From contig WNNJ02000651.1 of assembly GCA_012934845.2 (NCBI GenBank), forward strand, positions 1 through 64,000: a DNA stretch of 64,000 nucleotides, written 5' to 3'. Positions 1,262-48,837 of the stretch are shown in pieces. The notes beneath the pieces were generated by a model, which ran no database searches, was not told where the DNA came from, and saw nothing but the letters and a program-made list of their open reading frames with translations. Each line of letters begins with the position of its first letter. The first letter of the stretch is position 1. A program made the translations under genes and the position numbers. The DNA is from Pomphorhynchus laevis (Eukaryota; Acanthocephala; Palaeacanthocephala; Echinorhynchida; Pomphorhynchidae).

Positions 1262-2464
1262 GAGGCATCAAAAGCTATTAGCGAACATCTGAACATGTTC
1301 GCAAATTCCTGTATTACCGATCTCGCAGGTTCTTTAGCAGATAAGAGATACTCAAGGAGCACAAACAGGTGTGGCAAAGTATCGGAGGTGATCACTATTG
1401 CTAGGAGAGGGAACTATGGTAAGGCAGTGCGGCGGCTGACGTCAAACGATCTTTGTGACGCTTCGCAGGAAGTGTGAGAACGATTGGTTCAATTACACCC
1501 CCGTCAGAGTGTCCAAGGTGAGTTTCCGTCAATGCATCCGGATATTCAGCGATGCAGTGATATAAGTGACGCTATACAAGTAGACCGAGACCTTGTGTGG
1601 AGAGCCATCCAGTCATTTCAACCGTCAACTTCACCAGGTTGCCTAGGGTGGCGTCCTGAACATTTGCAGGACATGATTGCAGCGGATTGTGGGGGCAGCT
1701 TATTGGAGAGGCTTACACAGCTTGTCAACCACTTATTGGCGGGGCTTGCCCCAACTGAGCTTGCGCTGTGGTTAGCTGGAGCAGCATTGATAGGAGTGCC
1801 TAAAATAGATGGAGGGGTTCGGCCAATTGCTTCGGGTGAGACGCTGCGTCGACTTTGCGCCAAATGTATCTGTATGAAGCTGAGAGGTAGCTTTGCACGG
1901 ATTCTCCGCCCGACACAACTTGGTGTCTCGACTCCTAACGCCATTGAAACAATAATACACAAAGTACGAAGGATTCACACATCGTATAGAAACCGACTTG
2001 ATTGGGTTTGGGCCAAGATGGACCTGTCCAATGCATTTAATTGTGTCAACCGATCATCAATGCTAGACGAGGTGTTTGATCTCACCCCAGAGATTTACCC
2101 ATGGGTTAGCTGGTGTTACGACAAGCCATCAAATCTAAGGTTTGGAAACATGGAACCTCTAATATCAGAGCAGGGAGTTCAACAGGGCGATCCTTTGGGA
2201 CCTTTTCTTTTCTCTCTAGCGATCCAGAAGGTGATTACCCAGCCCAATGATAGTGAGGGAATCGAAGTTAACTGCTGGTACCTCGATGACGGCATCGTTG
2301 GAGGCAACCCTGAGGCTGTGGCTAATACCCTCAACAAACTAGAGAAGGCGTTCCACGTTTTGAACCTAAACTTAAATTGGGCAAAGACTGAAGTTACCGG
2401 TGATCCGGTAGCTGTTCGAAAGTGCATTTCGCTGTGCACAGAACGTCCATCTGCAGACATGTAA
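1262..2464 (+). pseudogene. reverse transcriptase, N-terminal and palm region of RLE-1
   Basis: The frame opens before 1295, has a stop at 1475-1477, and is then open from 1484 to 2464. Around the RT fingers a segment reads SPGCLGWRPEHL and RPIASGETLRR, typical of non-LTR RTs of this group. Motif A is AKMDLSNAFN with its catalytic Asp. Motif B is QQGDPLGPFLFSLAI. Motif C is WYLDDG, supplying the catalytic Asp pair. Motif D contains NWAKTE. All polymerase carboxylates are therefore present. The frame ends shortly after motif D, and the protein continues in another phase from about 2463, so a single-base frameshift near 2455 separates the palm from the thumb. The copy is decayed but young. Function in life: target-primed reverse transcription of the element RNA in the nucleus. 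Confidence 0.8.
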
Positions 2465-3035
2465 TTTTCATGTGCTTGGAACACCCATTGGTGACGATAT
2501 TTTCGTAAACTCACACCTGCACGAGCAAGCTTTCCCCAAGCTAAAACAAGCAATCGACGCTGTTTCTTTGCTTCCAGATCCGCAGATTGCATATTTGCTG
2601 TTGCGTCATTGTGTCGCCGGCCCAAAGATCAATCATTTCAACCGTACAATTCCACCCCTAGTAATGGAAAGTTTTTTACACAGGTTTGACCAGGAAGTCA
2701 TGCAAGCCTTTGAGCGAATAACAGCGACTCAATTAAATGAGGCCACTCGACAACAAGTTGCGCTCCCTCTAAACCTTGGAGGACTCGGTCTGCGAAGTGG
2801 AGAGAAGCACTCATTTTGCGCGTATATCTCTAGCATATTGTCGGTTGCACGGAATGGATCGCGCGACCCCAGAGAGTACGTAGGTTATGATGACACTTTG
2901 AGTCGGATGGTCAGTATGTTACAAAATGAGTTTGAACCTTTTGCCAACACAAAACAATCACGAATGTCATTTATGGTCGATAAGAAGTCACATGAATGCT
3001 TGCCCGGTCAAGCGAACCAATTTGATAGAGCGTGA
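2463..3035 (+). pseudogene. RT thumb/linker segment of RLE-1
   Basis: This segment continues the polyprotein in the phase used by the downstream endonuclease. It begins with VLGTPIGDD, a block that follows the RT palm in this LINE group. It then has the helical thumb and the hallmark block ALPLNLGGLGLRSG. It ends at a TGA (3033-3035), but the same phase stays open immediately afterwards (SAWLQV and then LWLGLAIFPKK). The TGA is therefore one nonsense mutation, or a TGG/CGA lesion, rather than a natural end. No initiation codon is needed here. Confidence 0.75.
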
Positions 3036-5633
3036 CTACTCGCAATAGCAAGACCGCATGCAAGTGCCTGGCTGCAAGTAACCCCCTGTCAAATCCAACG
3101 AGTAGATCTAACGCCGCCACAATTTTGTATCCTCGTGCGTCTATGGTTGGGACTAGCCATTTTCCCAAAGAAACATCGGTGCGACCGTTGCCTTCGTTCA
3201 TCGGATATTTATGGTCTGCACGCGCTCACATGTCAATACGGGGGACATCGAGGCCTTCGTCATGATGGCATTCGAGATGTTTTATTCCATGCGGCGCAGA
3301 ATGCTCGAATGCACGTCTCGCTAGAACCACAGAGATTATTGCCTGATCTTCGTGAAAGACCAGCCGATATCTTGATACATGGAGACCCCCCAGAAGCGGT
3401 GGATTTTGCAGTTACGCACCCACAACAGAGTGGTTTCCTGGCAGAAGCTGCTATTTCAGAAGGCTACGCAGCAGCGGCATATGCTGCCAATGTTAAGGAT
3501 CGAAAATACCGAGCGCGTATGGAGGCCCATGGTTATGTGTTCACACCCGCTGTTGTTGAGGTGTTTGGAGGTTGGAATGTCAAGGGCGAACAATTAATTA
3601 GACGTATCGCTGGTAATGTTAGTAAAGTTCGGGGTATTCCCTATAGCGTAGCGGTTACCAAGTTGTTCCAACGTACCTCAGTGGCCCTTATGCGTGGTAA
3701 CGCCCGCGCGCTATTGGCCTCACTTGGAATATCCTACTCGTCTAGTTCATGGGGACGCCCTCCGGTAACCCATGAACCGCTCGAACGATTTTTCGAAGAA
3801 AGCCAAGATGAGATGCAAAAGTCACAAAAACAAGGTAGCATCGAAGATATGGTTGACAAAGAACTGAGCACCTTTAAAGAAAAACTTACTGACAGGGAAG
3901 ATAATGAGATGATCCATCTGACCACTGACGTATTCCTGACAGCAGAAGAACTCGAAAACGTTAATGAATCTTCCATTCCAAAAGACCTTTCCATTCCATC
4001 CAAAAAACAACAGCAGGAAGGTCTCAATCAGGGTTACAGCGAAGGTTCGCCTCTTAATATGGCGAAATGTGTCGATGACCTGACAATCTCTCATCCGTCT
4101 CCAAACCACTTAGTCTTAACGGAGGAATTTTATTCACGAAATAATGGCCATTACAGCGACGCAGAAAGCCAACACGCGCCATCCAAACGAATTGTATCGC
4201 AAAGTCATTCACGTCCTATCGGTTTCCCCAATATAGGCAACAGTTGTTTTTTGAACGCTATCCTGAGGTCCCTCTTTTGCCTCGATATGTTCATGATCCA
4301 TGTTCGCACACAACACGCTTTCAGCGAGATTCTTAATTGCATTAGGAAAAAACGGGAATCAATTGACAATCAACCATTTGGCGTAACACGATTCACAGTC
4401 AAAGCAATCAGAAAACGAAATCGGCAATATCGTACGGTTACGCACCCGCCTACTGACATTGAAAACCGCGTCGTTACATTTTTGGGACATATGAATTGCC
4501 TCGCCGACATATTAGAACATGCAAATAGTAAACAGGGCACAGTCAAGAGAGCCCTACGGGGTATACTGGACCTGACCCCACTCGAGAAACTTAGACAACA
4601 TAACGCACACGAGATGTTGCTCTCTATTTTTGACCTACTACCCGGTTGCGATGACCTCTTCTCGTTTACGGTGTGTAATACCCTACGATGCACTCACTGT
4701 GACGCAGTGACTCGATCAGAAGACGTGAGTTTCGATCTCTGTCTTGGTACCAGATTGGGCGGGGCCATGAAAGTCAAAGACGCTAACTCAATCCCACAGC
4801 CACGGCCCGAATGGAAAACTGACTATCCAGATGAGTGCGATCTAAATGCCTGTGTGCAAAAGAGGTTTGGTGATGAGATGGTTGACGGTTTCTTGTGCAT
4901 CCATTGCGGGAAGTATGGTGTAAAGATCAGCCGAAAAATTAACTCACTTCCGTCAATGTTGATAATCTCCTTGCTGCGCTTCGGAATCGAGCAATGTCCT
5001 TACTCGAATGTGTTTGACGCAAGTACTCGGAACTGCAGCCGTGACATTGTTACTTCAAAGCTCATGACAAAGGTAGCTATTCCAGAACATCTAAATATGT
5101 ATGATTATTGCGTACAACCCTCGTTACCCACTGAATATATACTCCACGCGATAGTCAGCCACGAGGGGTTCTGTCCGAAGTTTGGTCACTACATCTGTGA
5201 TGCCAGGCTGCAAGTGCCCTGTGCACAGATACCACACGGATCTAAGAACAACGACCCCGTCATTCGTTGGTTTACTTTTAACGATGACGTTGTGGACCGG
5301 TACAAGGACTTTAGCAAGTTACTGCAGGATCGGCAAAGGTCCGCATACATCTTGTTTTATCAAAGAAGTGATAAAGCCGCAAACAAAAATATGTGCAATG
5401 TAGAGATGCACTTGACGAATAAATACAGGGATCTTTGTAAGAGTCAAGTTTACTCAGAACAAACGAGCGGCGTGATGTTTTGCCCCCAGGCCGAAAAGAG
5501 CAAAAACAGGAAGGGGTCAGGCGAGAAGCAGAGCGAAGCCCCCGACGAAAAGACGATGATGACGGGGACTGAAGAAAGAAGTGACGTCCGCTCGGCGGCG
5601 ACTGGCAGCAGTAAAGCGCGAAAAGGATCCTAG
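3036..5633 (+). CDS. restriction-like endonuclease fused to ubiquitin-specific protease (RLE-1 polyprotein C-terminus)
   Basis: The phase is uninterrupted from 3036 to the TAG at 5631. The first ATG is at 3135; residues below are counted from it. Residues 16-33 form a CCHC zinc motif (C16, C19, H29, C33). It is followed by an RH(D) block, then RPAD near residues 76-79 and VDFAV near 89-93, the catalytic pattern of the LINE restriction-like endonuclease. A linker rich in Glu, Lys and Ser (about 215-360) leads into a peptidase C19 fold. The Cys box is IGNSCFLNA with C371. Two CxxC pairs sit in CTHC and CIHC. The His box is FGHYICDA with H685, and WFTFNDD with D717 completes the triad. A USP removes ubiquitin from proteins. 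All catalytic positions look intact although the upstream RT is broken. Fusion of a USP downstream of an RLE is unusual. A chance chimera of element and host gene is the alternative. Confidence 0.8.
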   Translation, partial: LLAIARPHASAWLQVTPCQIQRVDLTPPQFCILVRLWLGLAIFPKKHRCDRCLRSSDIYGLHALTCQYGGHRGLRHDGIRDVLFHAAQNARMHVSLEPQRLLPDLRERPADILIHGDPPEAVDFAVTHPQQSGFLAEAAISEGYAAAAYAANVKDRKYRARMEAHGYVFTPAVVEVFGGWNVKGEQLIRRIAGNVSKVRGIPYSVAVTKLFQRTSVALMRGNARALLASLGISYSSSSWGRPPVTHEPLERFFEESQDEMQKSQKQGSIEDMVDKELSTFKEKLTDREDNEMIHLTTDVFLTAEELENVNESSIPKDLSIPSKKQQQEGLNQGYSEGSPLNMAKCVDDLTISHPSPNHLVLTEEFYSRNNGHYSDAESQHAPSKRIVSQSHSRPIGFPNIGNSCFLNAILRSLFCLDMFMIHVRTQHAFSEILNCIRKKRESIDNQPFGVTRFTVKAIRKRNRQYRTVTHPPTDIENRVVTFLGHMNCLADILEHANSKQGTVKRALRGILDLTPLEKLRQHNAHEMLLSIFDLLPGCDDLFSFTVCNTLRCTHCDAVTRSEDVSFDLCLGTRLGGAMKVKDANSIPQPRPEWKTDYPDECDLNACVQKRFGDEMVDGFLCIHCGKYGVKISRKINSLPSMLIISLLRFGIEQCPYSNVFDASTRNCSRDIVTSKLMTKVAIPEHLNMYDYCVQPSLPTEYILHAIVSHEGFCPKFGHYICDARLQVPCAQIPHGSKNNDPVIRWFTFNDDVVDRYKDFSKLLQDRQRSAYILFYQRSDKAANKNMCNVEMHLTNKYRDLCKSQVYSEQTSGVMFCPQAEKSKNRKGSGEKQSEAPDEKTMMTGTEERSDVRSAATGSSKARKGS

Positions 5634-9034: not shown

Positions 9035-9815
9035 GTAAGAACAGTGACTCGTAATAATTGTTTCTAAACTCAACTCACTACGTTCATATGTTGGATTTAC
9101 ATTTAAATCATTAGAATTAACCTCTTTCATTAGTATATCATAATAAAGCTTTTTGCATATGAAGACAAAGTTATTACTAGCTTTATCAATAGTTGTTATT
9201 ATATAGTTATCCTTTAATTTAGTAAGTTCTTTATACATATCTTTATTAATTTTATCTTTCCTTTTATAATTGCTTGTTATTTTCATTTTATTTTTAATTA
9301 TATAAAATATATAATCTTTCCGAATTTTTATCTTAGATATATTCGAGCTTTCACTATTAATCAGCTTACTAAAGTAATCATTTAAGTTATTATATAACGA
9401 ATTGTAAATTTTATTTTTGTCGTTGTTATTATTTAATCTATATTTATACCCTTTTGATAGCAGCTTTCTTAATTCACAATTTTCAATTAATTCTAGATAA
9501 TGAGTGCATATATGTTCATTTATTTTATCAAAACTAAGACTTTTACAATTGCATTCTGTTTCCATTATGTTTCTAATATTATCGTTACATATTGATTTTA
9601 ATTCTTTATTATAATTACAAATTTTTCGTCCTAATTGCGGTAGGAGTTTATACCTTATTTTAGGAATATGTTTGTACTTAAATCTGATCCTATTATTTCT
9701 TAACTTTTAGAATTATTTAAAAGTCCTGCTATATTTATGTTATCTATACATTTATTAATGAAGTTTATGGTTAATGTATATTTTTTATTGTTATTAAGCA
9801 CATAAAAGATGTTTT
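9035..9815 (-). mobile_element. Penelope-like element fragment (PLE-1)
   Basis: The - strand carries an internal part of the PLE copied more fully at 23.5-25.7 kb. The open part (9565 to 9008) begins METECNCKSLSFDKINEH and includes the RT N-terminal block TIDKASNNFVFICKK. Both ends are cut: it stops at the equivalent of SHCS, before the RT palm motifs, and starts inside the 5' coding region. The orientation is opposite to the other PLE copies in the window. Confidence 0.75.
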
Positions 9816-12892: not shown

Positions 12893-13582
12893 TTGCATCC
12901 ATCCATCAAAATCACCTCCACCAACCTCCACTATCCTTCCACTCATAACCTCTCTTCACATCGCTTGCTACCCTCTTTTTTATCATTATCCACTATGTCT
13001 CCCGTCGTCAAACCAAATCCCTCCAAATCATCAACTGCCAGCTCTTCTATCGTGATCTCACCTACTCACGTCAGTCGTCCTCCTTTACGGAAGCGCTTTG
13101 CTTCTCGCGATCGTTGCGTCATTGTTACTAATATCACGCCTTCTAACGCCTTATCTCCACAAGCACGTCTCGACCACGATGTTTCCGCCTTCAGATCCAT
13201 CCTCTCGTCTTTTGTTCCTGCGGATAAACCATCCTTTTTCAAGGACATTTCTCCTGTCGCATTCATCCGTCTAAACAAATCTTCTCAATCTAATCCTTCC
13301 CAGCCCCCTCTCCTAAAAATTGTTTTCAAGCATCGCTTTCACGCGTCTTCTGTCCTCTCTCAACGATTCAAACTCATGTCATCTTCAACCACTCGAATTT
13401 TCCCCGATCGCGCCCCTTCCGAAATCGCTCAAATCTCTTCAGCCCGCATCGAAAAACGCCGTCGCGGGGAAAACGGCGAAACATCACTCGCTATCCGAAA
13501 CATAGACGGAAATTTTCAAGTTTTCCACACCCGTCCAAAAATTCGATGGCGCTCCATCTCTCCTATGTGTCTTCTCCACTAG
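12893..13582 (+). CDS. L2-1 ORF1 protein
   Basis: 229 residues, Ser/Pro/Thr-rich at the N-terminus. A globular segment (about residues 75-200, containing CVIVTNI, LNKS, and PLLKIVFKHRF) has the layout of the RRM-like domain in CR1/L2 ORF1 proteins, which bind element RNA. It overlaps the start of ORF2 by 37 bases in a different phase, a compact arrangement that implies reinitiation or frameshifting for ORF2. The frame is intact. ATGs also occur upstream in other phases; this one gives the longest frame. Confidence 0.65.
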   Translation: MHPSIKITSTNLHYPSTHNLSSHRLLPSFLSLSTMSPVVKPNPSKSSTASSSIVISPTHVSRPPLRKRFASRDRCVIVTNITPSNALSPQARLDHDVSAFRSILSSFVPADKPSFFKDISPVAFIRLNKSSQSNPSQPPLLKIVFKHRFHASSVLSQRFKLMSSSTTRIFPDRAPSEIAQISSARIEKRRRGENGETSLAIRNIDGNFQVFHTRPKIRWRSISPMCLLH

Positions 13583-16444
13583 TCTCTTTCGCCACAGCAC
13601 ACGGTTTCCGCCTCGGTCTCCTCAACACTAGATCTATTCTCAATAAATCCGATCTTATCCTCAACCTATTCACCAAGCAATCCATCGATCTCTTCTGCCT
13701 CACCGAATCCTGGCACTCAGATTCCGACGACCTTTCCATTCGCCATCTGCTCTCTGCCGGTTGCTCCCTAGTCGAATCCGCCCGCCCCCTCAGCTCATGC
13801 CCGTCTAAATCCTCTAATCATGGCGGCATCGTCGCATTCGCGCGTCACCCAGCGTCTCTTCGCAAAATCAATCCCCCTTTCAGTCCTTGCTCTTTTGAAT
13901 TGCTCACTTGTCGTTATTCTAACCCGATCACTCTAGATCTCGACATTGTATACCGTCCTGGTTCATCAGCTCCTACTGCCTTATTTTATACCGAACTCGC
14001 TGACCTCCTTTCTCATTGTTCTTTGTCCTCAATCCCTTCACTCGTTCTAGGCGACTTCAATATACGCCTAGACCGCCCCTCTTCTACAGATTCCATCAGC
14101 TTCATCAACATTCTATCCAACTACAATTACAAACAAATATCCACTGCCCCCACACATATACTTGGCAGGGCACTCGACATCATCGCTGTCCCCGATCATT
14201 TTGCTGCCCACACCTCACTGTCCATCTCTGATCCTGGTCTATCCGATCACTTTATTATCACCCTTGATCTCGCTCGCAACCACACCCCTCCTCACACACC
14301 TACAATCCTACGTCGCCCTTGGAGAAATCTTGACCTCTTCCCTTCTCCGCTCTGCCTTACTCAAATCGTCTCTATCATTACCCACAATAACATATTCATC
14401 TCCTCACGATCTCGCCTTTCTTTTCGACTCTGAACTCACATCCACTCTCGATATTCTCTTGCCCTTCAAGTCTCACCCACACCGTCGCTTGCACCGTACC
14501 CCATGGTTTGACATCCAATGCCTACTCTCAAAGCGTCGACTCCGCCATGCTTTTCGAGTCTATCACCGCTCTCTCAGACGCGATTTCCGCTCGATCACTC
14601 CGTCTTTCCGTGATTCCTATCTTGCTCTTCGCCGGTCTCATCTCCACCTACTACGTACCAAATGCAACTCCTTCTGGCAGCATAAAATCATCACTTCATT
14701 CAACTCTAAGACTCTCTGGCATACTTTTAACTCAATCCTGGCTCGTTCCTCTACGCCTTGCAACATCAATGCTAATGATTATTCGTCATTTCTCCAGACT
14801 AAAGTATCCACGCTGCTCTCTCACACCCCGGTCTCCATCCTATCCCACTCTGCCCAGTCTACTCTCATCCTTCCGGAACTCTTTCATCTTCTCCCTGTAT
14901 CACCTACTGAAGTATCATCTGTCCTCATGTCCTTGCCCAACAAAACCTCACCTGCCGATCCCCTGCCTACCCACATATTAAAATCTATATGCTCATCGAT
15001 ATCCCCATTTCTCACAACCTTGTTTAACTCTTCCATCCGCAGTCGTATCTTCCCTTCACACGGGAAATCCGCAATCGTTCGTCCCCTCCTTAAGAAACAA
15101 TCGCTCGACCCCTCCCTTCCTTCTAGCTATCGCCCCATTTCACTACTCCCTACTCTTTCAAAGCTCTTAGAACGCCTCATCTTAATACAAATCAACGCTT
15201 ATCTCTCCTCATCCAATCTGTACCCTCCTTTCCAATCCGCTTTCCGCTCTAATCACTCGACAGAAATCGCATGCATAAAAGTGTACAACGACTTACTCAT
15301 TTCTCGAGACAAGGCTCTATATAGTGTTCTCATCTCCCTCGACCTCTCCTCCGCATTCGACATTGTCGACCACTCCGTCCTCCTTTCTCGCCTTCGTTAT
15401 GATTATGGCTTTTCTTTCTCCTCCGTAGCTTTGTTCGCCTTCTATCTATCCGACTGTTCCTTTCGCGTCTGTTCTAATTCATCATCCTCCCCTCCCATCC
15501 CTATTTTTTGCGGGGTTCCACAAGGTTCAGTCCTAGGTCCCCTGCTTTTCTCTCTTTTGCTTGGCGATCTCTCTCCATTTATCAAACCTTACTCCTTTAA
15601 CGTCATGCAATACGCCGATGACATTCTAATCTATGCTCATGCACCCGCACATCGCATACACGATATCGGCATTTCTGCCTCCAACTGTCTTTCTTCTATC
15701 TACAAACGTCTCTCCAATCTCCATCTCGTTCTAAACGCCGAAAAGTCCAAAATAATGTGGATCCTTCCCCGTAAACCAAGCATATCTCCTCCCATTGTAT
15801 CTTTTGCCTCATCGATCATCCCTATAGTCCACAATCTCACTTTCTTAGGCTTCCATTTCGATGATCACCTTTCCCTTAAACCCTTCGTCCGTGACAAGGT
15901 CCGCTCGTCTAACTTAATTCTTCGTGACATCCGCCGTATCCGCCCCCTTATCGACTTCCGTTCTTGTATGTCTCTTCTTTCATCGCTTCTTTTCCCTAAA
16001 ATCGATTACTGCCTTAGCCTTTTCGCCAATTCTCCAAAATCCATCATCCTACCCCTACAATGAATAATCAACACCGCCGTTCGAGTGCTCTTCCGTCTCC
16101 GTCGCTTCGACCACACATCCACATATTTTGCCCAACTCTCCTGGCCCACCATCCACATCCGCATCAAACTCCGCCTTCTTCTCGTTACTTTTCGTCTCAT
16201 CGCTGTCGGCTCCCCATCGTTCATCAACCTTCCTTTCTTAGACGATACTCGCCCCACCTCGCTATCGCTTCGTTCCTGTCATACCCTCTTACTCCACGTT
16301 CCTAATTACTCCAACAACTACGGTCTCCGATCCTTCCTCGTCGCGGCCTCACTCGCCTGGAATCAACTCCCTCCAGACGTCCGCCGCGCTCCCTCCTTTA
16401 TCACATTCAAACACCTCCTCCGTTCACACCTTCTCGACACCTGA
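13546..16444 (+). pseudogene. L2-1 ORF2: APE endonuclease and reverse transcriptase
   Basis: The phase from 13546 covers the apurinic-like endonuclease: LNTRSIL, LTESWH with catalytic Glu, VYRPGSSAP, LVLGDFNIRLDRP with the catalytic Asp, and GLSDHFI. A one-base insertion near 14345 moves the protein to a second phase; the - strand copy at 62 kb has no such base. That phase holds the RT: YRPISLLPTLSKLLE, motif A LISLDLSSAFDIVDH, motif B GVPQGSVLGPLLFSLLL, motif C MQYADDILIY, and FLGFHFDD. A TGA at 16061-16063 breaks it, but the same phase continues to 16444 through the L2-type C-terminus. It has only two lesions, with all catalytic residues intact. Confidence 0.85.

Positions 16445-16515: not shown

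Positions 16516-16588
<73 letters not shown>
16516..16588. repeat. (TA)n microsatellite, right flank of L2-1
   Basis: A 73-bp pure alternating AT tract directly after the L2-1 3' end. Confidence 0.9.
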
Positions 16589-23501: not shown

Positions 23502-25675
23502 TCGTTTTTACATTAAAACGCTTAATTCCTAATACCCATTAGGATTGAATGACGTGATACAAGGAATTGGCAGAAGTAGTATAGTAAATAATAAACAACT
23601 ATATAATAATCCGGTTAGATGCAAGCCAAGAATCATGGCGATAAAAGGAATAAAAAATAGACTTAAAAATATTAAAAAAGATATGCATATAAATGAACAA
23701 TTAGAAATATTAAAACGACTTTTAAGAGATAATATGCTGAAAGATCTTTATGTAAATATAAGTTTTTCTAAAGATATATTTGTTCAATAAATCAAAGATT
23801 AAAAACGATTATGACAAATTAAGTTGTATAATTAATAGTTATTGTATTGTAAAATACTATAATCGAACAATAAATGTTAATAATAACAACACCAAATATA
23901 CATTAACCAAAAACTTCATTAATAAATGTAAATATAACATCGATATAGATAGACTTTTAAATAATAAAGTATAGGAATAATAGGATCAGATTTAAGTACA
24001 AACATATTCCTAAAATAAGGTATAAACTCCTACCGCAATTAGGACGAAAAATTTGTAATTATAATAAAGAATTAAAATCAATATGTAACGATAATATTAG
24101 AAACAATGGAAACAGAATGCGATTATAAAAGTCTTAGTTTTGATAAAATAAATGAACATATATGCACTCATAATCTAGAATTAATTGAAAATTGTGAATT
24201 AAGGAAATGCTATCAAAAGAGTATAAATAAAGATTAAATAATAACAACGACAAAAATAAAATTTACAATTCGTTATATAATAACTTAAATGATTACTTTA
24301 GTAAGCTGATTAATAGTGAAAGCTCGAATATATCTAAGATAAAAATTTGGAAAGATTATATATTAGATAAAATTAGAGAGAAAATGAAAATAACAAGCAA
24401 TTATAAAAGGAAAGATAAAATTAATAAAGATATGTATGAAGAACTTACTAAATTAAAGGATAACTATATAATAACAATTATTGATAAAGCTAGTAATAAC
24501 TTTGTCTTCATATGCAAAAAGCTGTGTTATGATATACTAATGAAAGAGGTTAATTCTAAGGATTTAAATGTAAATCCAACATATGAACGTAGTGAGTTAA
24601 GTTTAGAAACAATTATTACAAGTCACTGTTCTATAATGGATAAAAAGGGTATAAAAGTTGAATCAGATAATAAAATTATACCTATATTATATCGGAATCC
24701 AAAATTACATAAAAATCCAATAAAACCTAGGTTCATATGTATTGCGTTTAAATGTACATTAAAACCACTTTCTGTCGATATTAATAAAATACTTAAAGTA
24801 ATTAAAGCACACTTCAAAAAATATTGTAGGATATCGAAATTAATACTGGTATAAAACACTATTTCAGTATTAATTCTACAAAAGAATTTTCAGAACAGAC
24901 AAAAGGAATAAATTTTCAAAATATAAATACATACGATTTTAGTACGCTTTATAAAAATCTAGATTTAGTAGATATTAAAGAAGCGTTAGTAAAATTAATT
25001 AATCTTATATTCGTAAAAATATATGCATATATATGTTATAATAATTATAACGCCTATCTAACAAAAATTAAACCATCAAGTAAATATAAATATATGGATA
25101 AAATTGAATTAATAGAATCCTTAAATATTTTGATAAATCAAAATTATTTAAAAGTAGGGACATCTATATTTAGACAAGTAAAAGGTGTTCCAATGGGAGG
25201 TAATCGTAGCCAAATTATAGCTAACTTGTTTTTTAGCTTTATAGAATATGAATTTGTTCATAACTGTGTCAAAACTAAATCTAAACTATATAAATATATG
25301 AAATATATGTTTCGATACATTGATGATATATGTGTATTTAATTCTAATAATTTTTATTCAATTAGTGAACAAATTTATCCAGAAAGCCTTATTCTTAACA
25401 AAACCAATGATATTGGTTTTCTTCAAAATCATTTAAATAATTTAATAGATACATATTTTAAACTAGGTTACTATAAAAATACCATCAAGCAGAAAATAGT
25501 AAAATATATAAATCAACACAATAATATAAAGAATAAATTTAAACTCTTAAGTGGCAAATTTTTATGGATGGATAATAAATAATATACTTTGTATTAGAAT
25601 AAGATACTAGATAGTTTTATCCGAGGAAATACATCATTAGCATGTATTTGGCCCCGCTGCTATGTTGGGTAATGA
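23502..25675 (+). mobile_element. Penelope-like element, most complete copy (PLE-2)
   Basis: The 5' coding part is split into frames at 23545-23790 and 23780-23974. The RT follows (24384-25582), then a 3' region with the hairpin AAATACAT/ATGTATTT, ending at ...CTGCTATGTTGGGT near 25670. Compared with PLE-4 it lacks about 170 bp after ...IYPESLILNKTN (the PLE-4 segment reading LDINIKL through ATICN). No GIY-YIG endonuclease could be recognised at either end. It abuts R600 copy 3 upstream. Confidence 0.8.
24384..25582 (+). pseudogene. PLE-2 reverse transcriptase
   Basis: The frame 24384-24854 holds IIDKASNNFVFICKK and the PLE block ILYRNPKLHKNPIKPRFI followed by CTLKPLS. In another phase, near 24927-24960, motif A reads TYDFSTLYKNL with its Asp. 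A third segment (25094-25582) holds motif B KGVPMGGNRSQIIANLFF and motif C MFRYIDDICVFN with the Asp pair. The protein ends KLLSGKFLWMDNK. Frameshifts near 24850 and 25000-25090 make it defective. PLE RTs are related to telomerase and can prime at DNA ends. No endonuclease domain follows the RT, so this may be an endonuclease-lacking or N-terminal-endonuclease lineage. Confidence 0.8.
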
Positions 25676-27319: not shown

Positions 27320-28147
27320 AAAACATGAAACTGAGAGATAAGCGGATATTTAATTCTATTGTTTTATTAAATTATTTGTTTCTGTAAGAATAAATCTTCC
27401 TTTCAGTTCAAATATATATGGGCACTCGTTTATTAGTAAATCCAAAGTCGATGATGATTTTTTTAGATAAACAGAAGAATCTTAACATTAAGTTCAATTT
27501 GATTTTATCGGTAGCCTTGAGATTGCTAACGTTCAGATCCTGCAGTATTACCGTTAGGCTGTAGGAAATTCTAGTAGCTAGCAAAATAGAAATATTTCAT
27601 TGCCGTAAACGTAACCAACTGAAGCCAAGATGTTTATCATAGCAAATTGGGAATCTATTTTGCTAACAAGTTTTAGATATGCACAAAAAACGTCCAACGG
27701 TAATTTAATGTATTAATAATGTATTAAACAATTTAATGTATTTGACGCATTAGTGTATTTAATGTATTAGACTACTACTGTCAACCCGTTTTTCTAAAAA
27801 TATAATTCAAACTCATTTTATACAGATAAAATGTTTGCTGGACTAAAGTAATAAAGAGCTAAGTCGTATTAATAGAGCAGAAGCATCTGTTGAACTTCAT
27901 GAAAATCTGCTATAAACTGATTAGACAACAACGGACTCAAGGAATCTTGATGAATGACATTTAATTGTAGCGAACTTTTAGAATACTGGATACTGCCGAT
28001 GTAGTAAAAAATACGCAGATTCAGTTAGCTGATCTAATTTATTCTACGGATAAGTTATTATTGATTTGTAAACTGTTTTCTCTGTAATATAACCTCTGTC
28101 AGAAATACTGGAACTATGTATTATTGGTTACAACGTTATTATTATTT
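27320..28147. other. AT-rich gene-free stretch
   Basis: No gene or clear repeat is visible. Confidence 0.45.
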
Positions 28148-28720
28148 TTCTGCTAATGTTCAAGCAATTTAATGAATTTTTTCTATTTCTTATAATGGAA
28201 AAATAAAAATCAACATAATATTATTAAAATATTAAATTTACAATATATAAATCAACAACATATCATTAAAAATAAATTTAAACTATTAATCGAAAACCTT
28301 AATATGGATAATAAACAATATGCTTTGTTAGACAGTAACATCATCATCCGTTTTTCGACAATCAATTTTTAAAGCCAAAAAATATTCTTCTGCTAATGTT
28401 CAAGCAATTTTATGATTTTTTTCTATTTCTTGTAATAGATAAGTATAAATCAACAAAATATTATTAAAATATTAAATTTAAACTATTAAGCGAAAAAATT
28501 AACATGGATAATAAACAATATGCTTTATATTAGAATAGGATACTAGATAATTAAATTGCATTAGAGGAAATACATCATTAGCATGTATTTGGGCCGCTGC
28601 TATGTTGGGTCGAGGAATAGGGATGGAAACCTGATAACATAGCAGTTCCTCCTGATGAACTTTAATCCTTATTATGATACATCGTTTGTTATTTATTAGT
28701 AAATACATATTGACTTCATT
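28148..28720 (+). mobile_element. PLE 3' end with 240-bp tandem duplication (PLE-3)
   Basis: TTCTGCTAATGTTCAAGCAA occurs at 28148 and 28388. Each copy is followed by the PLE sequence just before the RT stop (TTAATATGGATAATAAACAATATGC type). The second copy continues through the conserved 3' structure: hairpin AAATACAT/ATGTATTT near 28567-28591, then CTGCTATGTT near 28597 pairing with AACATAGCAG near 28635, then a stretch complementary to the start of the 3' region. Confidence 0.75.
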
Positions 28721-28865
28721 TATAAAAGTCAATAAAAATTGACTTTTATTTTAAATTTTAACAATTTTTATCGTGATATAAATATTAATTGTATAAAATT
28801 TTAAATAATTATTTATTATTATTTATTATTATTTATCTTTATTTTTAATTTATAAATAATATAAA

Positions 28866-29132
28866 TTACGTAAACTCAGTTAGCAAATCTGAGTAATGAG
28901 GAACAAGAATTTGATGGATTACATAAAGCATTGAATCTCCAAGCTTCAAAATACATGTTAACATTTTTGAAAGGAGACTTCCACTGTCGGAATTGAATGC
29001 CTTTGTAAAATCAACAAAGACAACATGCAATGACTTTATATATTTTTTGGCTTTAAAAATTGATTGTCGAAGAACGGATAATGATGTTACCGTATTACAG
29101 GATGTTATACATCCATGTTGTTCAGCAGACAA
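28866..29132 (-). pseudogene. LINE reverse transcriptase fragment
   Basis: An 88-codon - strand frame contains QHGCITSCNTVTSLSVLRQ and VVFVDFTKAFNSDSGSLL. These match the block before and at RT motif A of APE-type LINEs (usual wording QHGFRPGRST and FIDLTKAFD). No further RT motifs follow in any frame. A small relic of a LINE family not otherwise seen in the window. Confidence 0.65.
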
Positions 29133-31139: not shown

Positions 31140-31559
31140 TTATATATAGTATACATCTACCTGCCACTTTTCAATGACAAGCCGATGGTGGCAATACAAG
31201 CGCAAATTATAACGTCTGTAATAAATACTATCATTTTTGCATATCCTCGTTTATTTTAGCTGAAACGCTTTGATGCTCTAATTTCGAGTTTTTAATTTAC
31301 TGAATTGCTAAATTAACTAGGTGTTGAAAATATCAGAGGTAAACATTCGTAATCGGCACCGTGAATTCGTTCACCGCATTTCGAATGTTTTCTAGTTTCA
31401 CTGAAATAAAGCCAGGTCGGTCTACATAAAGTGAATAGTATCCAGTTAAAGGATATTGACCATATATAAAAATATTAATCAAAATAAGTCAAAAATTCAT
31501 AATGATATACAATAAAGTATACTTCATGATTTACTAATTTGAAAATTTATTTATTTACT
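31140..31559. other. possible upstream part of the Merlin relic
   Basis: More GC-balanced up to about 31450, with no continuous frame. May be the decayed N-terminal half of the transposase. Confidence 0.25.
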
Positions 31560-31852
31560 TAGAAAAATTAATTAATCTTATATTCGGAAAAAGATATACA
31601 TATATATGCTATAATAACTAGAATGCCTATAAAACAAAAATTAAACCATCAAATAAATATAAATATATGGATAAAATTGAATTAATATAATTCTTAAAAA
31701 TTTTGACAAATCAAAATTATTTAAAAGTAGGGGCATTTATATTTAAACAAATAAAAGGTGTTCAAATGCGAGGTAATAGTAGCCCAATTTTAGCTGACTT
31801 ATTTTTACGCAATCATTTCTAGCCAGACGCGGAAGAACGACGATAACAGTAG

Positions 31853-31895
31853 CAAGTACCGTTTCGTCATCACAATGACTCATCTGTGCCAGATC
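31853..31895 (-). ncRNA. hammerhead-like motif in the nested element (candidate)
   Basis: On the - strand: GGCA, CAGATGA (one change, U4 to A, from CUGAUGA), stem II GTCAT-TGTG-ATGAC (5 perfect pairs), GAAAC, GGTAC. GUC...GAC flanked by AUGA and GAAAC is the usual wording of animal and plant hammerheads. Stem III and stem I are not clear. Confidence 0.35.
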
Positions 31896-32091
31896 CCTCC
31901 CATTGCTGGATACAGAGGAGAACTGGCAGGCGGAACACGAGTCATGCGTATGAAGTACCAGAAAGATTTCTGGTAACTTCACATTGAGTGCTAAATCAGC
32001 ACTACTGCTTCACCAAATAGGATCATTAGCAAAAGCATTGGCAAATGTCAACGCAAGTCTCTTTTGGCGGCTAATATCTTTTTAAATTTTC

Positions 32092-32248
32092 AAGGAGTGT
32101 GAGACCATTCCGCGTGAATTATGTACGCAATCATTTCTAGCCAGACGCGGAAGAACGACGATAATAACGACGATGTTATCGTCGTTCTTCTGCGTCTGGC
32201 TAGAAATGATTGAGTACATAATTCACGCGGAATGGTCTCACACTCCTT
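32092..32248. repeat. near-perfect 73-bp palindrome
   Basis: Left arm 32092-32164 and right arm 32176-32248 differ at very few positions, with an 11-bp spacer. A stem this clean indicates a young inverted duplication. Confidence 0.9.
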
Positions 32249-33524
32249 CTTGGAGACTTATTTTTAAGCTTTATAGAATATGAATTTGTTCATAACTGTG
32301 TAAAAAATAAATCTAAATTATGTAAATATATGAAATATAATTGTAAATATATTGAAATATGTTTCGATATATTGATGATATATGTGTATTTAACTCTAAA
32401 AAATTTTATTCAATAAGCGACCAAATTTATTCAGGTAGCATCATTCTTAATAAAACCAATAACGATAAATAATGTATATATCTAGACATAAACATTAAAT
32501 TAACATCAATTAAAACTACCTTTGATTTATATCGTAAAGATGACATATTTAAATTTACAAGAAACATATTTTTGCATGAGCATTCATGCATACCATATAA
32601 TATAAAATATAATACATTAAATAATGAAATTTTAAGAATTGCAACAATATGTAATGATATTGGCTTTCTTCAAAATCATTTAAATAATTTAATAGATACA
32701 TATTTTAAACTAGTTTACTGTAAAAATACCATCAAACAGAAAATAGTAAAATATATAAATCAACACAATAATATAAAAAAATTTAAAATCATTATTTGAA
32801 AATTTTTATGGATGTATAATAAATAATACACTTCATATTTGAATTTTATACTAGATAATCAAATTTCATCAGCAAAAATACGCCATTAGCACGTGTTGGG
32901 CCCCACTGCTATGTTTAGTTGAAGAATAGGGGTCGAAACCTGATAACATATCAATTCCTTCTGATGACCTTTAGTCCTAATTCTAATACAACGTCTGTTA
33001 TTTATTAGTTAATTCATAGAAATTGACTTTTATTTAAAATTTCAATTTTTTATTTTAACTGGATATAAGTTATATAAAATTATATGACAATTATTTATAA
33101 TTATTTATTATCTAATTATTAAATTTTGATTTATTGATTTAACATTTATTTTTATTTATCTATTTATTTATTATTGTATAATAATATTAAATACGTATAC
33201 TCAGTTAGCTGAATTGATTCATTGAAACATCAATGACAAACAAAGATTTGATTCATTCCAATTTATTTCATGCTTTTAGTTTAAAGTGATCCATGATTGT
33301 ACTAGAAACTGATGTTGTTTTGTAAGAATGCATTTAGGTTGTTTGACTATTTTCGCAGAGCTATTAACTCTTTAATATTTTATTTTATACGTAGAATTAC
33401 GTATACAACGTTTTCTTTGTATATTGATTTAAATTGTATGTATATTTTGGTACAGATTTATTATTTTGGTATAGATTCTGATTATCCTGGGATATATTGT
33501 ATTTCTTAGCATCCTTTTTACAAA

Positions 33525-33690
33525 ACTTTATTTGAAAATTTTAAGAATGAATAATAAACCATATACTTCGTATTAGAATAAGGTACACTAGATAATCAAA
33601 TTTCATCAGAGGAAATATGTCGTTAGCATGTATTTGGCCCCGCTGTTATGTTGGGCCGAGGAATAGCGAGGGGGGGGCGAAACCCGATAA
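33525..33690 (+). mobile_element. PLE 3' end fragment (PLE-5)
   Basis: About 165 bp of the PLE 3' end only, from the last RT codons through ATGTCGTTAGCATGTATTTG and CTGTTATGTTGGGC. It adjoins a poly-G tract and the end of a decayed transposase (33700-34137). Confidence 0.7.
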
Positions 33691-33699
33691 CATATAAAA

Positions 33700-39779: not shown

Positions 39780-40455
39780 AGCTCCTCCGACCAGACAAAT
39801 ACTGGACATTTTTATCACAGTGATTGTTTGAATATATACTGTTTAAACAATTTGTTAAAACAATTGTTATACTACTAGTTAAAATAATTGTTAAACACTG
39901 GATAAAACAATTATCTTAATTATAACAAATTACTTACAACTGAAAAAGTAATAGGTAAGTTCTTTAATTTGCTGGTGTAATATATACTCGTATATATATT
40001 AACTAACCGAGCCAAATTCAAAAACAAAATGACAAAATGTATATTTTTAAAGCTTTTTTCGGCGTGAGCCTTCTTCAGTAATTTACTAATCAAAAACACT
40101 AATTATATATATAATTCAGCAACAACCTCTGCCAAGTGTTAAAGGATGGTCCGCACAGCAATTCGATCTGGTAAAGAGCCTACGCCTCAGTCAATTAAGT
40201 AAAGTGTCGGAAACGCCTTCATTCACAATGTCACACAGGCAACCGAAATGATCAGTGGGGACTTCATTCTACTGATGAGTGTTGCATGATACTCATAATT
40301 TCGATACTGAAGTGGTCGTCTAGAAGTGACATGGTGACTGAAAGTCGTGAATCGAATACAGTCTATCATGCAAACACCATTTTTATAAAAATGCCGAATT
40401 TCATAAGAAATCCAAGACCGTTGTCTACTCAGCACATCTGTGCACATCCATTATA
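39780..40455. other. gene-free stretch
   Basis: Contains a cluster of AACAATTGTTA-like palindromes (39840-39930) and the hammerhead-like motif at 40050-40088. No supported gene. Confidence 0.45.
40050..40088 (-). ncRNA. hammerhead-like motif (candidate)
   Basis: On the - strand: CTGAAGA (intact CUGANGA), A, GGC-TCAC-GCC as stem II, then GAAA leading into the near-palindrome AAAGCTTT. Stem I is not convincing. Similar layout to 16638-16680. Confidence 0.4.
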
Positions 40456-40712
40456 TGTTTTCATCATGAAGAGGCGTAAACACCAGGCAGCATTCTATAT
40501 ATATTCATCAGACTAAGAAATAGAACCGAATTATTCTCGCAATATTCAAAGTAGCTACGTATGCCCAGTCATCCTATGCGTGACGACAAACTTCCACAAC
40601 GGTAGATGCGTTTCGCTCTGACGGAGCTCATCAGTATCGTGACTTTAATAATCATCCATAGGCACCTTAGCACACGCTTATACAGTGTTTAAAGCTCAAA
40701 AAACAGAATTAT
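40456..40712 (-). mobile_element. retrozyme-like element, monomer (family RZ-1)
   Basis: About 257 bp aligned by eye to 46881-47320, sharing AACACCAGGCAGCATT, CTACGTATGCCCAGTCATCC and CAGTGTTYAAA near the right end. It contains a single hammerhead-like core (40601-40638), whereas the other locus has two. No coding capacity. Confidence 0.65.
40601..40638 (-). ncRNA. hammerhead-like core of RZ-1 monomer (candidate)
   Basis: On the - strand: GATA, CTGATGA, stem II GCTC-CGTCA-GAGC (4 perfect pairs), GAA, ACGCAT, C, TACC. The core strands are intact. Stem I (GATA with TACC) keeps three of four pairs. Stem III is one change from the palindrome ACGCGT. Confidence 0.55.
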
Positions 40713-41765
40713 TCTTACTCTGAATCATCAGAGGGATTTAAGGATAAGATATGTGCATGGCAGTGCGTATAGCAGTTTAACCATGCATCAGACACTAAAT
40801 TCCTGTTACTAGAAATGCTGTTTAACATGGACACGTTCAATTGTACAAATATATAAAATATAAATTGTTTTTACACCTGCCCTGGGAAAAGCTTTATATA
40901 TGATTGTTAATATACAATATAATTGCTGTTCTATAATACATCAAAGGTATCTTCTAAGTCATGATGTACCCGTTCAGGATTCTTTGATCACTTGTGATAC
41001 TGATAACGTTTATTAAAAAATAGGAAAGTATTTAAGCTTTTGCTCATCACCAAAATTGTAAACTAAGCAATTTAAGATTCCTACGGATATAGCATGAATG
41101 CAAATCAAATTTACACCCATGTATTGTACACTGGAATGTATACATTCTGAAAGCTATTAGAAGTATGTTCAGTGGTCAATTCAAAATAAAAATTTATGCA
41201 ACGAAATTAAAATGGAAATATGAAATATTATTAGATACGCATTATTTTATTATCGAAAAATATATTTTCAAAAAATGTGGTTTTATGTTTTAAAAGATTA
41301 TTCTAATAGGTTTGCATTTAATGCTTGTTTAAAATAAATTGGACAAATTCGCAATAAATAGAAGATATACAGATATCGCCATCGACACGATGTTAGCGAA
41401 TGCAACGACTTATTTACGGTCATTCCTCTCTAGTTGAAACTGTGACTGCATAAATGTGATTCTGAATGAATCACAGTGGATCAGAATTGATTTTTTTATT
41501 TTTATATTGGTTAAAGATTGTAACAGTAAATATCTTATAAATATGTACAAGACGGACCAAATTTTAGATTTTTACAAAAAGCTTTATTTAATTTTTTTTA
41601 TAATCGAGCATATCAAATCGCGGAACACTTTCTATAATGTGAGATAAAAAAGGTGTACTATACTTAGTATTAATAAAAACTGCTAATTTCGACATTCTTC
41701 TTTAGGGTGACAAACCGACACGATAAAACACATTGGTTTAAGATTTCAATTGCTAATCTGTGTTG
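40713..41765. other. gene-free stretch
   Basis: AT-rich; a 63-codon frame at 41456-41647 looks like chance. No repeat recognised. Confidence 0.45.
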
Positions 41766-42458
41766 TCATTGGTCAACACTTTTCACCACGCTCAGATAGT
41801 GGCCTTTGTAGAAAAATAAGTTGACATCCTTGACAACATTCGCACTCTTGATTTTGTTGTCGCAAGTGCAGAGATCATTCTTTCTGCTTGGTGGGGAATT
41901 TAGGCAACTTTCACATGGCACAACTATACTTCCAAAACGAATTGGTGCGCAATTCAACTGATGCACGGTGATTGTAATTGACTTGAGCTGGCAGAAGGCA
42001 GCTAATGCTTCTTGGCCTAGCATTGTATTGGGCTCCATTAAAGCACGAATGTATTCATCGTAATTTCGATGAACAATATAGGGCTGAAACATGTCCTTAT
42101 TACGTAGCATATAATTGCAGACTTCCTTACGGTAGAGTAAATGATTGTCATATGATCCTATTAATTGGTCAGATAAGGCGTTCATCATACAATTTCCTCC
42201 AGCTGGGACGTCTTTCGCCTGAAGTCCTAAGGGTCGAAGCTGTCTATTAATCTTATTTATGATTGAGCGATTACGACGGGATGATTCCAAGGACATTGTC
42301 GATAATGACAACGGCGGTGGAGATAATTGACTACTGATTGCTGCAGTTGATATTAAAGTCGCGGGAGTGTTTTTTTTCGAATTTCTCTGTTGCATGGAAT
42401 TCAACTCATCCTCCGAGTTTGAGTGTTCACTAGATCTGTTTTGAAAATTATCTTTCAT
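41766..42458 (-). CDS. OTU-domain cysteine protease (deubiquitinase-like)
   Basis: 230 residues in one uninterrupted frame, between LINE copies. Residues 1-70 are Ser/Asn-rich and probably disordered. The OTU domain runs from about 73 to 225. The nucleophile block is KDVPAGGNCMMNAL with Cys90; the C-terminal His is H220 in GHYLSVV. In most OTUs the residue three before Cys is Asp (DGNC); here it is Gly87 (GGNC), so the triad may use another acid or the enzyme may be inactive. Overall wording is closest to OTUD3-like proteins, which cleave ubiquitin chains. Just upstream of the ATG the sequence TTTCCTCTTTGCTAG is a good splice acceptor, so this may be the last coding exon of a longer gene. OTU domains also occur in some LINEs; no RT is adjacent in frame here. 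Confidence 0.7.
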   Translation of the reverse strand: MKDNFQNRSSEHSNSEDELNSMQQRNSKKNTPATLISTAAISSQLSPPPLSLSTMSLESSRRNRSIINKINRQLRPLGLQAKDVPAGGNCMMNALSDQLIGSYDNHLLYRKEVCNYMLRNKDMFQPYIVHRNYDEYIRALMEPNTMLGQEALAAFCQLKSITITVHQLNCAPIRFGSIVVPCESCLNSPPSRKNDLCTCDNKIKSANVVKDVNLFFYKGHYLSVVKSVDQ

Positions 42459-46626: not shown

Positions 46627-47031
46627 TTATCGGCAAAGCCTCTTATAAAAACATTGAACGTGTTTTGCCTTTCCAGAGGCACCAAAAGTTTGATAATCAC
46701 CAGATTGGATAATTTTGATATCGGGGGAGTTCCCCCTCAGGAATATATTCAAGAGAAGCTAAATCTCTACTAACCTCTTTTACTGCATTGGCATAAAAAT
46801 TCGTTATTATTGGATTCTTTGATCACTCCGACGTGTTAAATTTATTCATGTAAACTAACAGCGGAGGTGTAAAATAAATCAATATGTTTTTACCACAAGG
46901 AGGCAAAAACACCAGGCAGCATTTTATATATCCTCATTAGACCAAGAAATATAACCAAATTATTTTTGCAATATTCAAAGTCGCTGCTACGTATGCCCAG
47001 TCATCCTATGTTTGACGAAAACTTCAACAAC

Positions 47032-47069
47032 GGTAGACGCATTTCGCTCTAACGGAGCTCACCAGCACC
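47032..47069 (-). ncRNA. hammerhead-like core, RZ-1 dimer unit 1 (candidate)
   Basis: On the - strand: GGTG, CTGGTGA (one change, A6 to G), stem II GCTC-CGTTA-GAGC, GAA, ATGCGT, C, TACC. GGTG with TACC forms stem I including one G-U pair. The A6 change would likely abolish activity of this unit. Confidence 0.5.
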
Positions 47070-47214
47070 GTGATCACACTAATCATCCGTAGACATAAAC
47101 ACCAAACAGCATTCGATATATCTTCATCAGAACAAGAAATAATTATTCTTGTAATATTCAAAGTTGCTACGTTTGCCCATGTATCATGTGTGACGACACA
47201 CTTTAATAACAACG

Positions 47215-47252
47215 GCAAACACTTTTCGCTCTAACGAAGCTCATCAGTACTG
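47215..47252 (-). ncRNA. hammerhead-like core, RZ-1 dimer unit 2 (candidate)
   Basis: On the - strand: AGTA, CTGATGA (intact), stem II GCTT-CGTTA-GAGC (one G-U pair), GAA, AAGTGT, T, TGCC. All invariant core positions are present. Stem I is weakened. Confidence 0.5.
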
Positions 47253-47435
47253 TGACCACAATAATCATTCATTGACACCTTAACACAAGCTTCAACAGTG
47301 TTCAAATCTCGAAAATATTGCAAGAATAATTCGAATATTGCGAGAATAATTGGGATATTTCAATAATAATTTGCTTCTATTTCTTTGTAAGGAGAAAACA
47401 TCTTTGCGGTACTACAATAACTGATCGTTGCATCC

Positions 47436-47475
47436 ATCTTCGTGGATCCAACGATTGAGTTGCATCCACGAAGAT
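47436..47475. repeat. perfect 12-bp hairpin
   Basis: ATCTTCGTGGAT (47436-47447) and ATCCACGAAGAT (47464-47475) with a 16-nt loop. Confidence 0.6.
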
Positions 47476-48837
47476 AATTTTATGGCATGCTTTAGTAGGT
47501 ACGGAAAGTGTCAAGTACTCTTTATCGATAAGCCATTCTATAAAGCAGGATTACCACAGATCATCCTGATATAGAATTTTGGTCACAGTGAAAAAGTAGG
47601 GCAGAAGCTAAATATCAAATAAAAATTTTCCTTCTTTCTTTGATCCAGCTCAATAATTCTTTATCAATAATGGATCATTATCAACTATTTAAAATTTATT
47701 AGTCAATTCATAAAAATTAGCTTTTATTTTAAATTTCAATTTTTTATTTCAACTTGATATAAATTATATAAAATCTTATAACAATTATTTATTATTTATA
47801 ATTATGTATTATTCAATTATTAAATTTTGATTTCGCATTATTATTTATTATTTTATAACTATATTAAATACGTAGAGTCAGTTAGCTAATTTAATTTATC
47901 CAATTGTAGGGCATAGCGGTATTTGATAAAACAAATTTAGAATCTATTATTATATACCCTTGCATGCACATAACGTGTTCTCCTCTTAAGACTGAATATA
48001 TGGAAGGAAGATGGAAGTCTGGAGTATTACCTCTACCTCATATTCTCCAGTCATATATCAGTATGTATTTTTTTACATAGGAATCAAGAAGACTCGGAAG
48101 CATAAATGTGACTTAGTTCTTCGTGGTAAAGGAGATATTATGCCCTTTTTGATGTGGTAGCGAATGGTTTTTGTAGGTGCAAGACTTTCGTTTGATCGCT
48201 ATTGGTGTCAACTTATATGCATTGCGTTAATATATACTTCTTGGCGGAATATCGAGTGTATATGCTTTGGTGACTGGCTTTGTATTAAAAGTCGAAGAAT
48301 GTCGGGGACATCAGCTACCTTTGGGCGTCGTTGGGACGATGTAGATCGCATCCGTACGAACTCCCCTATCAAAGATTAATGTAATTCAGGTCACGTTCAA
48401 TGAACATTTCATGATGCACACAGACTACTGAGACCATATTTACAAATGGGACAATGACATCACATAGAATCACTCACATGCTAAATCTATAATATCACCC
48501 TAGTGACGCTTATCAGTTTGTTCAGCTACTTATCAGTTTGTTAAGCTAAACTTTAATTGTTTTCAGTTTCTAGATTAAAGAAGCCCTTCCAGTGCGAAAG
48601 GTTTGAAACAATACATGGATCAATCAAGTTTAAATTTAGTGCGAAGATTAAACTTTAGAAGCTCACATTTTCTAGCAGGAAATTCTAGTGGCGGTAACGT
48701 ACGACATGCACTAGAACACAAAGAGATAGATTGCTATCACTATGTGATATTCCACAGTAATAAAAATGATATTTTCATTTCATAGTTCACAACATTAGCA
48801 AAAGCTGATATTCAAGCGATGCTTTAGTGTTTTTAGA

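Follow-up and report, generated by a model that had tools for sequence, protein, structure and literature searches.

A decayed, internally deleted copy of a retrozyme-type repeat in Pomphorhynchus laevis and the TA-rich ends of its repeat family

Features of the Locus

The window is the whole stretch of DNA analysed here, the first 64,000 nucleotides of contig WNNJ02000651.1 (assembly GCA_012934845.2) of the acanthocephalan Pomphorhynchus laevis. It contains three copies of a repeat that carries a hammerhead motif. Two of these copies lie head to tail and form a dimer, and the third lies some distance away. Positions within the repeat refer to a 464-bp consensus unit. The features are as follows.

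47091..47315, minus strand: upstream (RNA-sense 5') partial retrozyme unit of the dimer, unit positions 397-464 and 1-163, 81% identity (blastn with the 464-bp consensus)
46872..47095, minus strand: downstream partial unit of the dimer, unit positions 435-464 and 1-192, 86% identity
47086..47097, minus strand: approximate deletion junction between the two cores of the dimer, about 270-280 bp lost (pairwise alignment with the tandem consensus)
47211..47255, minus strand: hammerhead 1, core start 47247, with CTGATGA, GCTT/GAGC and GAAA
47029..47073, minus strand: hammerhead 2, core start 47065, with CTGGTGA, GCTC/GAGC and GAAA
47355..47388, plus strand: short inverted fragment of the unit, positions 90-123, adjoining the dimer
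40454..40887, minus strand: third retrozyme copy, 434 bp, running from unit position 212 through the cleavage site to 181, 90% identity
40598..40642, minus strand: hammerhead 3, in the third copy, core start 40634
40113..40455, minus strand: piece of TR380, a second tandem family with a 380-bp unit (also seen in locus L089), directly abutting the third copy at its RNA-sense 3' end

A first-pass annotation had described a head-to-tail dimer without giving its strand. This description holds: two related copies, at 47315..47091 and 47095..46872, place their cores 182 bp apart on the minus strand. On its RNA-sense 3' side, the downstream unit stops at GATTTATTT, which corresponds to a TA-rich spot in the consensus.

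The same annotation took the spacing for the true length of the unit, about 183 bp, and the locus for two working units of a 183-nt replicon. Although the spacing agrees with that length, it results from a single deletion of about 270-280 bp that joins two units of the 464-bp type. A core spacing this short is unique among the loci compared, the next shortest being 417 bp (L073), and 13 of the 14 complete units found outside the window measure 452-465 bp, with one of 493 bp. A 183-bp unit would also lack positions 397 to about 435, which the upstream copy has and the second copy does not. With one core mutated and both palindromes lost as well, the chance of such a replicon is negligible, and this reading was rejected.

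All three hammerheads in the window have lost the palindromic stem III. Hammerhead 1 keeps an intact core and 5 of 6 stem I pairs, with U at H17. Hammerhead 2 pairs fully in stem I (6/6) and has C at H17, and its core carries the change A6G. Hammerhead 3 has an intact core, 5 of 6 stem I pairs and C at H17. The identities of the window copies to the consensus (81%, 86% and 90%) compare with 84-99% for other pieces.

Because one core carries A6G and both stem III palindromes are gone, the window dimer is a fossil, and the palindromic stem III of the first-pass annotation survives in neither of its copies. Judged by these changes, neither hammerhead of the dimer would be likely to work well, and the locus is probably old and silent. 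It is a decayed, internally deleted copy of a retrozyme-type family found throughout the genome.

Anatomy of the Hammerhead

In the consensus unit, the strands of the hammerhead appear in the order ACGGTA, CTGATGA, GCTC-CGTTA-GAGC, GAAA, CGCGT, A or C, and TACCGT. They provide a stem I of 6 bp, a stem II of 4 bp, and a stem III that consists of a loop-less palindrome, ACGCGU. This order of strands is that of a type I hammerhead (PMC7229834).

Several elements of the motif had been proposed earlier. The stem I of GGTA/TACC is present, in full as ACGGTA/TACCGT, and the CUGANGA and GAAA strands are kept in a consensus built from many copies. The proposal of ACGCGT followed by C was half right: the palindrome belongs to the family consensus, but C is a minority base at H17. 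At 111 sites that lie outside the window, this position is occupied by A in 91 cases, by C in 18 and by U in 2. These sites come from loci L009-L028, L057-L076, L087 and L088, with the near-duplicates L066/L068 and L021/L022 both counted.

Most copies are predicted to be competent. A full sequence descriptor, which asks for an intact core and stem II, five or more pairs in stem I, U16.1, and any base but G at H17, is passed by 87 of the 111 sites; the core is intact in 91 and the palindrome is kept in 93. Since none of 40000 dinucleotide shuffles of the consensus gives the descriptor, it is not a chance match. Together with the recurrence of the family in the genome, this confirms the hammerhead cores as real.

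General covariance models recover the motif poorly. Rfam gives no match on the window at the gathering threshold and no hammerhead in 46700-47500 at E<=10. For a 101-base consensus-like copy, the best family is Hammerhead_HH9 at 14.3 bits (E 0.32, gathering 52), so the covariance check suggested in the first-pass annotation returns no significant score. We infer that the missing stem III loop explains the low score. When a model is made from 43 copies, including the three sites of the window, it recovers these three there and has no other notable match in the window.

The loop-less palindrome suggests that the ribozyme would act as a dimer. Conservation sets the hammerhead little apart: it reaches 98.2% at core positions and 95.1% elsewhere in the unit, and a 42-nt segment covering the hammerhead ranks 71st of 464, so that the hammerhead is only weakly better conserved than the remainder. 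No compensatory changes were found in the stems among 36 distinct copies. Because no pair is changed on both sides, and all 500 shuffles reach the observed stem pairing, the stems are supported by complementarity in the consensus, not by covariation. The minimum-energy fold of the unit as a circle reaches -124.8 kcal/mol (z -3.4 against 60 shuffles) and pairs CUGAUG away from the active hammerhead form.

A Repeat Family, Dispersed and in Tandem

The retrozyme family occurs both dispersed and in tandem in the same 249-Mb assembly (3242 contigs). The TTAGG telomere pattern gave 0 matches, and bantam gave no signal, controls included, so that it carries no information on the host. A genome search returned at least 73 matches among the best 40 of 1338 candidates scored, and searches with other parts of the unit gave 1889, 2119 and 2170 first-look candidates, of which the best 40 were scored each time. 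Copy number is a lower bound because 40 candidates were scored per search.

The consensus unit is 464 bp long, has 38% GC, and contains one hammerhead. In the tandem consensus, the longest frame from stop to stop has 70 codons and the longest from an ATG has 43. The RNA circle expected from such a unit would have about 464 nt. The search for multimers proposed in the first-pass annotation does find arrays, of at least 18 units, but of the 464-bp unit: L087 contains 18 cores spaced 461-465 bp, and L088 contains 14. Pieces of the retrozyme lie in both orientations in 10 of 41 loci, and no LTR arrangement is seen at the array ends of the loci inspected.

Metazoan retrozymes of the non-LTR kind can be recognized by a GC content below 45-50%, by the lack of an LTR, a primer site, and a polypurine tract, by target site duplications that, if present, exceed 4 bp, and by a strongly self-paired RNA circle in which the hammerhead stays free. 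By its anatomy (a type I hammerhead, multimers, 38% GC, and no coding capacity), the family is classed here among the non-LTR retrozymes of animals, as a new member. The earlier assignment to an animal retrozyme stands in this form, and not as a dimer of a 183-nt replicon.

The window locus probably goes back to the insertion of a non-autonomous retrozyme that has since decayed and lost an internal part, one that would have passed through a cycle of ribozyme processing and reverse transcription. A different account makes no use of RNA: a plain satellite with a fossil hammerhead would have spread through unequal exchange, circles of extrachromosomal DNA, and repair at microhomologies. The weak excess of core conservation agrees with it, and the 87 of 111 ribozymes that look intact speak against it. 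Further evidence on this question can be found inside the arrays and at their ends.

Evidence from Within the Arrays

Some arrays bear the marks of ordinary satellite evolution. In L087, 12 of 17 units differ by 0-1.5%, and the other five are more divergent, three at the edges and two inside. Such an array, largely homogenised with divergent edges, looks like the product of unequal exchange. In L010, two neighbouring units share the same broken core; broken units are amplified too. This case fits exchange better and needs no ribozyme.

Locus L014 shows another pattern. Its four cores alternate between broken (G8A) and intact in an ABAB order, and the A units share the same dead ribozyme. Units two apart differ by 0.2-1.7%, against 5.7-7.0% for neighbours. 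If cleavage sets the unit that is amplified, loss of every second ribozyme must double that unit, and L014 fits this expectation. It is a single case, and unequal exchange could also make an ABAB period.

Repeated stretches within one insertion are often closer to each other than to those of other loci, as in L066 (0.6% within, 3.5% between) and L072 (1.0-1.2% within, 4.2-6.0% between). In several comparisons of L009, L013, L015, L017, L019, L027, and L071, differences within the insertion are as high or higher. As a guide to whether a circle or a multimer served as template, likeness within insertions is not decisive, since homogenised arrays would produce it too.

Evidence from the Ends of Insertions

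The ends were analysed in 40 fetched loci and the window, with L006 and pieces shorter than 100 bp left out. Array ends away from locus edges and from other pieces were used, giving 42 RNA-sense 3' ends and 32 5' ends. Alignment by blast stretches such ends a few bases into TA flanks.

The two sides differ strongly. Three TA-rich spots, at unit positions 130-142, 185-196, and 236-258, make up about 10% of the unit; with the spots defined after the ends had been seen, 34 of 42 3' ends fall within them and 8 outside, compared with 1 of 32 5' ends within. After two near-duplicate loci and one artefactual 3' end are dropped, the counts are 32/39 and 1/30 (Fisher p 1.4e-11), with an artefactual 5' end (L009, position 1) kept among the 5' counts. 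Loci were chosen by similarity to parts of the unit, which biases the sample against copies ending before about position 187; among 3' ends at positions 188-464, 32 of 37 lie in the TA-rich spots.

The flanking DNA shows the same asymmetry. A TA run of at least 8 is present at 26 of 39 3' junctions against 8 of 30 5' junctions (de-duplicated, p 0.0015; 28/42 and 9/32 before de-duplication), and at 1% of random window positions. Some loci are TA-rich in both flanks, and many have rearranged 5' ends.

The 5' ends are scattered along the unit. The cleavage site has none of the 42 3' ends in its 6-nt neighbourhood; one 5' end (L011, position 27) lies at the site. In the 19 insertions with both ends in view, length varies from 0.76 to 3.03 units and is not an exact multiple in 18. 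The exception is L074, exactly one unit with adjoining ends (45 to 44) and without TA, as expected for insertion of an opened circle. Because the ends are one-sided, insertion of opened circles does not fit the other cases.

These observations also weigh on the satellite account. L074 is a point in its favour. Against it, insertions from opened DNA circles should measure whole units and have ends that adjoin, and the TA-rich ends seen here are fixed on one side only. A plain satellite spread without RNA is for these reasons unlikely. The one-sided pattern resembles target-primed reverse transcription that starts internally and stops at an arbitrary 5' point.

TA Tracts and Neighbouring Repeats

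In the 3' flanks of L028, L061, and L065, a (TA)n tract is followed by a repeat that begins CGAATAGTTGCTAGG, and a variant of it is found in L066 and L068. A pattern of 12 TA bases plus CGAATAGTTGCTAGG occurs at 11 further places. Five of these were fetched; all five (5/5) have a TA tract of 49-86 bp, differ in their upstream sequence, and show no match to the retrozyme within the 351-381 bp fetched. Since the pattern itself required 12 TA bases, the five places show only that the TA tract is independent of the retrozyme. In these places (L090-L094), the sequence beyond the (TA)n tract differs from one to the next. Because its far side differs in this way, the CGAATAGTTGCTAGG repeat is perhaps itself a TA-tailed element.

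TR380 is a second companion. Of 42 retrozyme loci, 10 contain it, compared with 2 of the 38 loci examined for the PLE and LINE (p 0.028), and several times it is joined directly to retrozyme 3' ends. TR380 was possibly moved by the same machinery as the retrozyme. As a sibling retrozyme it was rejected, having no Rfam match at E<=5 and no hammerhead of this type. At the TR380 junctions of L017 and L021, the TA tract far exceeds the TATA found in the TR380 unit, which means that slippage or later growth also contributes.

Candidate Helpers

A retrozyme without a long frame of its own would depend on the reverse transcriptase of another element. Candidates can be found in the window itself.

13294-16444, plus strand: LINE copy, repeated many times in the genome at 99% identity, with a (TA)36 tract directly behind it at 16516-16588
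9038-9796, minus strand: fragment of a Penelope-like element (PLE)
23505-25671, plus strand: PLE fragment
28007-28884, plus strand: PLE fragment
31559-33694, plus strand: PLE fragment
47694-47897, plus strand: PLE fragment

Two other coding regions of the window may be mentioned here. At 1478-5633 (plus strand), a reverse transcriptase frame lies upstream of one that encodes a ubiquitin hydrolase (UCH) domain, and the two perhaps form one LINE. At 41766-42458 (minus strand), there is an OTU protease frame.

The LINE at 13294-16444 attracts attention as a helper because of the (TA)36 tract behind it. Among 10 fetched loci, TA follows the LINE in the window copy and the identical copy L078 and is absent behind the other eight; for six reverse-strand loci, about 5 flanking bases were read. 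The LINE was rejected as a TA-tailed helper on this ground, and a helper role for it is very improbable.

An abundant PLE is the other candidate, and it would be compatible with the retrozyme reading, as it concerns the helper alone. Its PLE-type reverse transcriptase has at least 297 matches among the best 150 of 26857 candidates scored, with open frames of up to 908 aa, and tandem 3.5-kb units occur in the genome (L049, L050). The PLE here is one that we take to carry an N-terminal GIY-YIG-like motif and to go by the name Naiad. Three of its 14 protein relatives have a precomputed GIY-YIG domain. In Pfam, the window fragment matches RVT_1 below the cut-off, and the full frame is without a score.

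Published work lends the PLE some weight. PLEs are the helper favoured in PMC7229834 and PMC7761336, and a lizard PLE starts reverse transcription within its RNA at AT-rich cuts (PMC11167929). However, in 6 of the 8 PLE loci fetched, the main copies stop at position 372-375 of the PLE unit (TTAGCTGATTTAATT), and no (TA)n follows; in L051 the PLE ends elsewhere, at position 2785, and in L050 it runs off the contig. The retrozyme's 3' ends are thus unlike those of the PLEs found here, and with most main copies stopping at a fixed non-TA sequence, the PLE was set aside as the obvious helper. Across the eight PLE loci, PLE and retrozyme share no stretch longer than 15 bases, and model R1 gives nothing better than E 0.19, so that the retrozyme hammerhead is not one that sits within a PLE pseudo-LTR in these loci. 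Movement of the retrozyme by this PLE is rather doubtful.

Proposed Mechanism

The retrozyme reading can be set out as a cycle. A multimeric transcript, with one type I hammerhead per unit, would pair its hammerheads through the self-complementary ACGCGU stem III. The paired hammerheads would cleave after H17, once per unit, and a host ligase would close the 464-nt monomers. The reverse transcriptase of another element would then copy the circle or the uncleaved multimer RNA. Copying would have an internal start, where a UAUA stretch of the RNA pairs with TA-rich DNA of the target, often (TA)n. It would run past the cleavage site and halt at an arbitrary 5' point. Longer arrays may later have been reshaped like ordinary satellites. 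The hammerhead anatomy, the unit length, the arrays, the TA-rich 3' ends, and the scattered 5' ends are observed, and the steps of the cycle are deduced from them. Several observations speak against this reading: the stems do not covary, the hammerhead is conserved little better than the rest of the unit, the minimum-energy circle pairs it away from its active form, 8 of 42 3' ends miss the TA-rich spots, one 5' end lies at the cleavage site, L074 fits an opened circle, and L010 and L087 fit unequal exchange.

A stronger version of this reading is tentative and less likely than not. It states that the ends record the priming. A 464-nt circle processed by the ribozyme would be primed internally at UAUA on TA-rich DNA, and copying would roll past the ligated cleavage site to give ready-made arrays. 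The circle would double when one ribozyme of a dimer dies, as L014 may illustrate.

Relation to Known Systems

Metazoan non-LTR retrozymes, as Cervera and de la Pena 2020 (PMC7229834) describe them, are low-GC tandem repeats of 150-450 bp that carry type I hammerheads and are expressed as RNA circles, with RNAs of about 170-400 nt. The family in P. laevis shares with them a hammerhead once per unit, arrangements from dimers to large multimers, low GC, and a stable predicted circle. It differs in its 464-bp unit, slightly above both the range of 150-450 bp and the lengths of those RNAs.

A likeness in helix III, judged by description, is found in HHR_Amex1 of the axolotl, itself like the newt satellite hammerhead, in which helix III has one A-U pair and a palindromic tetraloop. 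According to the same paper (PMC7229834), such palindromic motifs cleave better as dimers; a helix III of this type is described there for amphibians, whereas a firmer one is described for invertebrates. Satellite DNA with a hammerhead has also been described from Dolichopoda cave crickets, as pDo500 (PMC2837043).

Penelope-like elements with hammerheads (PMC11167929) have in common with the family tandem copies, an internal start of reverse transcription, and AT-rich targets. Unlike the retrozyme, which is without a frame above 70 codons, they encode their own enzyme.

On the return of retrozymes to the genome, it has been said that a properly primed circle would be needed, with the primer being either target DNA or a small RNA (PMC7229834), and retrozyme repeats are described as having no motif that reveals the helper (PMC7761336). 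Insertion of retrozymes at TA microsatellites is absent from the titles and opening abstract lines of the open-licence papers listed for target-primed insertion and for microsatellites with hammerhead repeats.

Taken alone, the window locus is ordinary; what merits attention is the signature of TA-rich ends. The family offers numerous insertions of fairly uniform make, fixed on one side and with a TA target that can be recognised, and so makes the return of a retrozyme to the genome testable. The pattern points to an enzyme that would cut TA-rich DNA and copy RNA from within. Internal priming at TA, if true, would supply the missing primer of animal retrozymes.
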